Assembly: GCA_027487315.1 (NCBI GenBank)
Contig: JAIYDW010000015.1
Location: 1 to 64,000, forward strand
Source of the DNA: Verrucomicrobiaceae bacterium
GTDB lineage: Bacteria; Verrucomicrobiota; Verrucomicrobiia; Verrucomicrobiales; Verrucomicrobiaceae
Reading direction: 5' to 3'
Length of the DNA stretch: 64,000 nt
Of this stretch, positions 31,979 to 55,254 are shown in pieces; the first letter of the stretch is position 1; every line of letters starts with the position of its first letter. A program made the position numbers and the translations under genes. The notes under the pieces were generated by a model, which saw only the letters and a program-made list of their open reading frames with translations, ran no database searches and was not told the origin of the DNA.

Positions 31979-32407
31979 TTATGCTTGTTCCGCCTTTTTG
32001 GCCGCCGGCCGTTTGCGTGGTGCGGCCTTTTTAACAGCCGCCTTGGATGTCGAACTGCCCTCATCAGACTCCTCTTTGCCTGCCGCGAGTACAACGGTAA
32101 TGTGACAAAGCCTTTTCTTAATAGCACCGGCGGATCCCCGTGCACGAGGTGTGATGCGCTTCAGCGTCGGCCCAGGAGTAGCGACTGCGCTGCGAACCAC
32201 CATGTCTTCAGTATCGAGCTCATGGTTGTTTTCAGCGTTCGCAATGGCAGTGCGCAGGACCTTGCCAATCAGCTGTGCAGCCTTCTTGGGCGTAAAGTCC
32301 AGCACGTTAAGTGCCTGAGAAACGGGCATTCCAGTAATGGCTCGCGTGACCTGACGGGCCTTTTGCGAAGAGATGCGTGCGTAGCGATGAACAGAGCGGA
32401 CTTCCAT
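31979..32407 (-). CDS. rplV: 50S ribosomal protein L22 with Lys/Ala-rich tail
   Basis: 142 residues. The core runs from MEVRSVHRYARISSQKARQV through KRITPRARGSAGAIKKRLCH, the tunnel-lining hairpin region. The last 30 residues are Lys, Ala and Ser rich and look unstructured. It starts only 11 bases after the stop of the secreted coiled-coil gene, which separates it from rpsS. Confidence 0.96.
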   Translation of the reverse strand: MEVRSVHRYARISSQKARQVTRAITGMPVSQALNVLDFTPKKAAQLIGKVLRTAIANAENNHELDTEDMVVRSAVATPGPTLKRITPRARGSAGAIKKRLCHITVVLAAGKEESDEGSSTSKAAVKKAAPRKRPAAKKAEQA

Positions 32408-32418
32408 AGTGTGCGATT

Positions 32419-33213
32419 TTAGAAGGATTGTGAGGCGTCCGCTTGTCCACGGTCACCTATCATGAGCTTATCTGACGGGCTGAAAAGTTCGCGTACGACG
32501 GCCCCTGAGACGTTGGGCCTAACATCGGTGACAAGAACCCTTGCGATGGGTTTGTCGGCACGAAAAATATTGAAGGGCATCCCGGGCTTGGCCCCATCTT
32601 TGGTGCCCACATCTAGAACGACCACAGCTAGTTCGGGTTTAATGCTAACAACACTGGCCTCGGTTAGGTCCTTTTTGATTGGATCCCCTGCTTGGCTTAT
32701 TGAGGACTTCAATGCAGTCTCGGCACTTTGCATCGCCATTCCAAGCTTCCGGACAGACTCAGGATTCCCTGGTGTAGCCACCTGGCTGTATTCGGTCGAT
32801 GCCTCAAGCAAGCCGAACAGTGCATCGGCCAGTCGCTTTTGCTCCTCTTTGATCAACCGCAGGTCGTTAAGAGCAGCGATCAAACGATCTGCTTTTTCAT
32901 CACCACCGCTCTCGATCGCGCTGATGTCGAGCGCGTCCAGTAGCCCTCTCAATTGCAAGTAGCGCTCTTTGAGCTCAGCTGCCTCGGCTTGTGCAGTCGC
33001 CGCTGACTCCTGGAGAGCCACTGAGGGGGCGCCACCAGCCTTTTCGGATTTCTCCAGAACCTTGATCTTGGCGTAGGCTGTCCTGAGTGTGTTTTGCAGT
33101 TCCTCAAATTCAAGCGCATCTTGACCCTTGGCAAGTCCCGAACAGCACAACACCGCACCCACAACGGCGAACCGAAGGGCAAAGGGTTTGAGTGCTGTAA
33201 CCGGATTGATCAT
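32419..33213 (-). CDS. Predicted secreted coiled-coil protein inside the S10 operon
   Basis: 264 residues, not a ribosomal protein. The N-terminus (FALRFAVVGAVLCCSGLAKG) is a signal peptide or membrane anchor. Residues 35-140 are helical with coiled-coil character. Residues about 188-257 form a small beta domain (SVVSIKPELAVVVLDVGTKD, then GAKPGMPFNIFRADKPIARV) resembling the FlgT C-terminal fold, a link made from memory. It lies between rpsS and rplV, with gaps of 32 and 11 bases in the same direction, so it must be co-transcribed with ribosomal genes. Codon use matches its neighbours. Function unknown; an envelope role coupled to growth is one guess. Confidence 0.85.
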   Translation of the reverse strand: MINPVTALKPFALRFAVVGAVLCCSGLAKGQDALEFEELQNTLRTAYAKIKVLEKSEKAGGAPSVALQESAATAQAEAAELKERYLQLRGLLDALDISAIESGGDEKADRLIAALNDLRLIKEEQKRLADALFGLLEASTEYSQVATPGNPESVRKLGMAMQSAETALKSSISQAGDPIKKDLTEASVVSIKPELAVVVLDVGTKDGAKPGMPFNIFRADKPIARVLVTDVRPNVSGAVVRELFSPSDKLMIGDRGQADASQSF

Positions 33214-33245: not shown

Positions 33246-33524
33246 CTACTTGGCTACTTTGACGGTAATGCCACCATGGCTCTTGAACACGCGAGTCAAA
33301 GCAAACTCCCCAAGACGGTGACCCACCATGTTTTCAGTCACGTAGACGCTGACAAAGTCTTTGCCGTTGTGGACCAGAAATGTGTGACCCACGAGATCAG
33401 GAGTGATCATTGAGCTGCGCGCCCAAGTCTTGATTGGCTTCTTGCTGTTGGTCTCGTTGGCTTTGTCCACCTTTTCGAGCAAGGCTTGTTGGACAAAAGG
33501 TCCTTTTTTGAGTGAGCGTCCCAT
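33246..33524 (-). CDS. rpsS: 30S ribosomal protein S19
   Basis: 92 residues, normal length. It starts [19 protein letters not shown] and carries the conserved [20 protein letters not shown] and [14 protein letters not shown]19 contacts the A-site finger region of the large subunit. It follows rplB. Confidence 0.97.
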
Positions 33525-54447: not shown

Positions 54448-55254
54448 CTACCGCCTCTCCTTACCCTTCACCTTCGCCTCAAGTTGAGCCTTTCTCTTCA
54501 ACAGCTGCGCCAACGCCACTTCCCCCTCATTGATCCTCACCTGCAATGCCGCCGCCGCATGCCGATGCAACGTCGGATCTGAATTTCCACCCAGAATGGC
54601 ACTCTGCACCAAGTTGTTTTCTTCAGCCAAGGCCCTCTTCATGTTTCCCAATTGCCCGTTCAATCGCACCACTTCGTAATCAGCTTCCTCCAATTGCTCA
54701 TCAAGCCCCACCCCCTGAGTGATCGGAGCATTCGCCTTGTTGACCGCCATCACCGGCACCGCCTGCTCAAATCCCAATCGTGTCTGCAGACTCGGATTTA
54801 ACCGATTCAGTGGCACACTCATCGTGCCAGCCTGATGCATGAAAGTCAGATTCGATTCCGTCAGTTCCCGAATTTTCACCCGCTCAAACTTCTTCCCATC
54901 AATCTCCACCATCTCCAGTTCCATTCCGGGCGCCCGTTTCCGAATCGAAACTTTATACTGCGCCTTGTAATCTGAAAAATCTTTCCTGATCGCCTCCAAA
55001 GCCTTCGCCGCCTCGTCCATCTGCGATTGCAACTTGTCCCGCTCCGCCTTGAGCTTGTCTCGTTCGGCCTGCACCGCTTTCATTTGCAATTGCAGCCTCC
55101 CCATCTCCGCCTTCGCCTGGGCTTGGATCGTCTCCAACCCACGAATCTGATCTCCCAATGACCGGACCTGCGCCTCATCCTGACAACTGCTCAGCCCAAA
55201 CAATCCAATCACAAAGCCACTCCGCACTGCGTTCTGAATCATCGCCTTATTCAT
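54448..55254 (-). CDS. Coiled-coil lipoprotein
   Basis: 268 residues. A type II signal peptide ends in GLSSC (C24), so the protein should be lipid-anchored. Residues 30-100 form a heptad-like coiled coil (MKAVQAERDKLKAERDKLQS). A small domain follows (ELEMVEIDGKKFERVKIREL, then VPLNRLNPSLQTRLGF), and the end is helical again. Function is not recognised. It is divergent from cca. Confidence 0.82.
   Translation of the reverse strand: MNKAMIQNAVRSGFVIGLFGLSSCQDEAQVRSLGDQIRGLETIQAQAKAEMGRLQLQMKAVQAERDKLKAERDKLQSQMDEAAKALEAIRKDFSDYKAQYKVSIRKRAPGMELEMVEIDGKKFERVKIRELTESNLTFMHQAGTMSVPLNRLNPSLQTRLGFEQAVPVMAVNKANAPITQGVGLDEQLEEADYEVVRLNGQLGNMKRALAEENNLVQSAILGGNSDPTLHRHAAAALQVRINEGEVALAQLLKRKAQLEAKVKGKERR

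Follow-up and report, generated by a model that had tools for sequence, protein, structure and literature searches.

In the genome of the Verrucomicrobiaceae bacterium studied here, a gene for a predicted exported protein, referred to below as gene X, interrupts the S10 operon between rpsS and rplV. Few gene orders in bacteria are as strongly conserved as that of the S10 operon. Comparison across genomes showed that gene X is old and vertically inherited, and in this sampling the Verrucomicrobiota appear to have opened the operon once and to have largely kept an exported-protein gene there. We favor, with a confidence slightly short of even, a reading in which the product of this inherited gene serves as an envelope scaffold or assembly factor, the dosage of which would track ribosome synthesis.

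The window, that is, the whole stretch of 64,000 nucleotides that was analyzed, contains the gene in a ribosomal gene order that is otherwise standard. The frame starts with ATG and is open over 264 codons. The initial annotation had described a gene for 264 residues, 32 bases from rpsS on one side and 11 bases from rplV on the other; the coordinates agreed with this description, and the neighbors were confirmed as S19 and L22 by Pfam. The features of the region are as follows.

32419..33213, minus strand: gene X of 264 codons, flanked by rpsS and rplV, its product predicted to be exported or anchored; open reading frame with same-site homologues in 55 relatives from the order
33246..33524, minus strand: rpsS (S19), upstream neighbor, 32 bp from gene X; PF00203, E 4.6e-37
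31979..32407, minus strand: rplV (L22), downstream neighbor, 11 bp from gene X, with a linkage retained in the phylum; PF00237, E 8.6e-38
33124..33213, minus strand: N-terminal signal or anchor segment, residues 1-30; hydrophobic stretch with an equivalent in phylum homologues
32695..33120, minus strand: helical, coiled-coil-like stalk, residues 32-173; AlphaFold2 helices at 32-59, 63-102, 105-144 and 151-173
32440..32658, minus strand: C-terminal cradle-loop beta domain, residues 186-258; similar in Foldseek to FlgT, MreC and F1-ATPase, and retained in all forms

The order was searched in 57 genomes, the genome of the window included, and a homologue of X was found in 55 of them with E-values from 4e-164 to 6e-7. 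The two genomes without a match were 75% and 87% complete. In each of the 55 genomes, a gene of 235-310 codons was located directly before rplV, being longer only where its upstream boundary was unsure, and it followed rpsS wherever the contig extended far enough (at locus L038 the contig begins too late to show the rpsS side, and the copy at L052 was recognized mainly by its position). Absence from all relatives would have spoken against the gene; instead, homologues occupied the same site in these 55 order relatives, and the site was still retained where identity to the window protein had fallen to 20-30%. Against the two closest relatives, the dN/dS of X was 0.094 and 0.086, at dS of 0.31 and 0.60, which was above that of the ribosomal neighbors yet clearly purifying. 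Gene X is therefore under purifying selection (dN/dS about 0.09), and a spurious open reading frame was rejected on the basis of this value and the deep conservation. Since sequence and position are both conserved, chance is excluded.

The phylum was then surveyed by a profile search of 289 genomes, the results of which were compared with the positions of S19 and L22 in 135 sampled genomes. In 128 genomes of this survey the sequence surrounding rplV was read; 11 X-bearing ones among them had been chosen for an X match. The order rpsS-X-rplV was observed in 32 of the 128 genomes, and in a further 36 the operon was split after rpsS while X still stood directly before rplV. In 41 genomes rpsS was followed by rplV without X, nearly always within about 150 bp, and the remaining 19 had a split operon with no recognizable X. 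Of the 55 genomes in which a split operon was read, 36 thus kept the gene beside rplV; without the genomes chosen for an X match, the figure was 29 of 48. Some of the split genomes scored as lacking X may contain a copy that is too divergent to be recognized; in G135, for instance, an open reading frame upstream of rplV ends like X and scores E 1.1. The gap between X and the L22 match had a median of 17 bp and a range of 1-169 bp. With the 11 X-chosen genomes removed and 15 further members of the order added, the sample numbered 132 genomes; X immediately preceded rplV in 72 of these and in 27 of the 41 families. Several lineages (f8, f11, f21, f23, f27, f28 and most of f9) have lost the gene.

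The splitting of the operon after rpsS was itself seen in f20, f25, f26, f30, f31, f36, f38, f42, f44, f45 and f46. In these families rplV is far off or on another contig, and unrelated genes come after rpsS. In the ribosomal-protein tree, most of them group together as a single clade.

Outside the phylum, 30 named genomes were reached via a 16S signature pattern. In 24 genomes of seven other groups, rpsS and rplV were separated by 2-146 bp and X was absent; these comprised eight Planctomycetota (Singulisphaera included), seven Chlamydiota, five Omnitrophota, and one genome each of Cloacimonadota, Eisenbacteria, BRC1 and Abditibacterium. X was present in the Kiritimatiellae genome G354. The metagenome-assembled genome AMP-14 (G356, locus L393), which is titled Verrucomicrobia, was without X, and it clustered with Chlamydiota in a tree of S19, L22 and S3; its title is therefore probably wrong.

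In this concatenated tree (406 sites, 167 genomes), the X-bearing lineages formed one clade beside Chlamydiota with a support of 0.82, and X was found in every main branch of the clade. A tree of the beta domain (75 columns) set the S10-linked copies apart from a second, paralogous family with a support of 0.97, and the main host groups were recovered among the S10-linked copies. The simplest reading of both trees would be one insertion in the stem of Verrucomicrobiota, followed by vertical descent with repeated loss or relocation. The deep support was moderate in both trees. The X tree tracks the host tree in its main groups, and a recent horizontal acquisition was rejected on this ground. 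The initial annotation had held that the gene is not a recent guest and might be a lineage marker, and both ideas gained strong support from an insertion that is phylum-wide and old, with secondary losses.

Homologous copies also occurred elsewhere in some genomes. Those of f20, in G082 and G122, fell in the S10-linked part of the beta-domain tree and thus represent a relocated X; at these loci (L437 and L438, g74) the gene lies away from rplV and now stands behind genes of an RND-type efflux system. X-less genomes of f8, f9, f23, f26 and f43 have copies at other sites too, but for these relocation was rejected, since they fell in the paralogue clade. The f23 and f26 genomes without X at the S10 site carry their copies in this clade, some of them in tandem. 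Near dnaX, the genome of the window has two genes in tandem (contig C25, L432, 6940-8855) whose anchored, helical products carry this beta domain as well, and a corresponding pair was seen in a g12 genome (G047, L433, 6878-8517). These dnaX-linked paralogues of the Verrucomicrobiota share with X the anchor-helix-beta plan and a homologous beta domain, but they belong to the separate clade and occupy a different locus.

The domain plan proposed in the initial annotation was borne out by AlphaFold2 modeling with 40 homologues, which gave helices over residues 32-173 behind the N-terminal hydrophobic segment and a six-stranded C-terminal domain with a pLDDT of 91-97. A 124-residue form, modeled with 60 homologues, had the same beta domain with a pLDDT of 94-98. 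The forms of X span about 110-400 residues, and the C-terminal beta domain was present in all of them. The short forms of about 110-130 residues, in f7, f9, f13, f14, f16 and f17, consist of little more than the export segment and the beta domain, while the long forms have extra helices. With a simple hydropathy threshold, as opposed to a trained signal-peptide predictor, an export or anchor segment was detected in 64 of the 68 homologues from the phylum. The tail beyond the beta domain is variable, and no arrest-like motif was conserved in the C-terminal tails of the homologues.

In Foldseek searches the best-ranked matches of the domain were FlgT, MreC and the N-terminal barrel of F1-ATPase subunits, with FlgT (3w1e) as the top match of X (E 9e-5) and MreC as the third; the top match of the short form was 8z5n (LPHT ring, E 5e-3). 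These best E-values are modest because the domain is small. The predicted fold is of the cradle-loop type, which is common to several proteins and is no proof of a common function. Searches of Pfam and NCBIfam returned no family for X, only chance or coiled-coil matches, and a profile search of PDB sequences retrieved chiefly coiled coils. At E-values up to 10, X was matched neither by PF04085 (MreC) nor by the FlgT profiles, FlgT_C included. For 60 homologues, 25 families were listed; PF04085 was not one of them, and FlgT_C was not matched either. The FlgT-like C-terminal domain that had been suggested from the sequence therefore stood as a fold, at residues 186-258, but not as a family, and MreC is an equally good analogue.

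That X is a divergent MreC or FlgT which does the work of either protein is highly improbable and mostly refuted. The likeness to MreC is clear: an N-terminal membrane segment, a coiled coil and a C-terminal beta domain of similar fold follow in the same order, and all 14 sampled g12 genomes had X and no MreC match, while an MreC match was obtained for nearly every other genome sampled from the phylum. Unlike MreC, however, X has no profile match and only one barrel-like beta domain, and its gene lies in the S10 operon. Moreover, a separate canonical MreC was found in 119 of the 135 sampled genomes and on another contig of the genome of the window (G000:C56, E 1.1e-36). With FlgT, a flagellar H-ring protein, X shares the fold of the C-terminal domain, which is the best structural match of its beta domain, but the other FlgT domains are absent and a coiled-coil stalk stands in their place. 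Non-ribosomal genes such as secY, map, adk, infA and rpoA reside in the S10, spc and alpha clusters and are widespread in bacteria. X resembles them as a non-ribosomal resident of a ribosomal operon; in contrast, they occupy other sites, and X is a predicted exported protein of one phylum, placed between rpsS and rplV.

The codon use of X had been said to match that of its neighbors. This was true of GC3, which was 0.566 compared with 0.49-0.65 for the S10-spc genes of the window, but the CAI of X (0.725) was just below all 18 reference genes of the S10-spc set in the window (0.738-0.835), which have a slight advantage as they count in their own reference set. No terminator-like site was found on the coding strand from rpsS to rpsC, promoter-like and terminator-like sites in general were at chance level, and no Rfam element was detected in the window. 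Given the short gaps and the coding strand free of terminator-like sites, co-transcription of X with rpsS and rplV is plausible.

In the reading that we favor, the product would be exported across the inner membrane, or anchored in it, by its N-terminus, and a helical stalk of variable length would expose the small cradle-loop beta domain to the periplasm, an architecture like that of MreC. The protein would probably serve to scaffold the envelope or to help in its assembly. If translated from the same message as rplV, rpsC and rplP, it would follow ribosome production in amount, so that envelope building would be supplied in step with growth. This reading agrees with the constant site in the order, the position beside rplV across the phylum even in split operons, the absence outside it, and the single insertion with vertical descent, as well as with the export segment, the fold, the dN/dS of 0.086-0.094 and the uninterrupted stretch without a terminator-like site. 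Both the export segment and the persistent linkage to rplV are in keeping with a coupling of envelope and ribosome. On the other hand, the loss of X in several lineages indicates that the coupling is dispensable, its CAI falls slightly short of the values of all ribosomal genes, its length varies greatly among lineages, and the modeled fold is common to proteins of very different function. The bolder proposal of a dedicated Verrucomicrobiota device, in which a periplasmic scaffold set in the S10 operon beside rplV at the base of the phylum would be both a signature gene and a growth-rate-coupled envelope factor, seems unlikely to us.

The main rival, which we consider quite possible if somewhat doubtful, is that an ordinary envelope gene landed once in the S10 operon and remained there on account of the cost of breaking the operon, with a useful product but an idle position. 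The many losses and moves of X without visible damage to the operon would be expected on this account, as would its ordinary codon adaptation and the related paralogues that work from another locus, next to dnaX. It explains less well why X was kept beside rplV in most split genomes, where its upstream side had been freed, or why the site was retained at 20-30% identity. The retained linkage is precisely that to rplV, and an exported protein lies directly upstream of it with a short gap; translation and export of nascent X might then regulate the translation of rplV and feed export capacity back on ribosome synthesis. SecM does the like for secA. We regard such a secretion monitor as very improbable, because no arrest-like motif is conserved at the C-terminus of X; furthermore, the tail is variable, the conserved part is a folded domain rather than a short peptide, and the gap ranges widely.

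No published description of X was found in the open-access literature, to which the search was confined. A signature protein of the PVC group has reportedly been worked on. By its position, X marks Verrucomicrobiota off from Chlamydiota and Planctomycetota, and it represents an uncharacterized protein family with a defined fold. The gene has stood before rplV from roughly the time at which the phylum arose, a hint that the building of the envelope and the making of ribosomes may be tied, and it offers a direct route to ask whether the two supplies are genetically linked.

Another predicted secreted or lipoprotein-like coiled-coil protein of 268 residues is encoded at 54448-55254 on the minus strand according to the list of open reading frames; it was not retrieved as a homologue of X in the search of the same genome. 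Over the window (1-64000), the GC3 of the checked genes was 0.71-0.86 on the plus strand and 0.49-0.73 on the minus strand.
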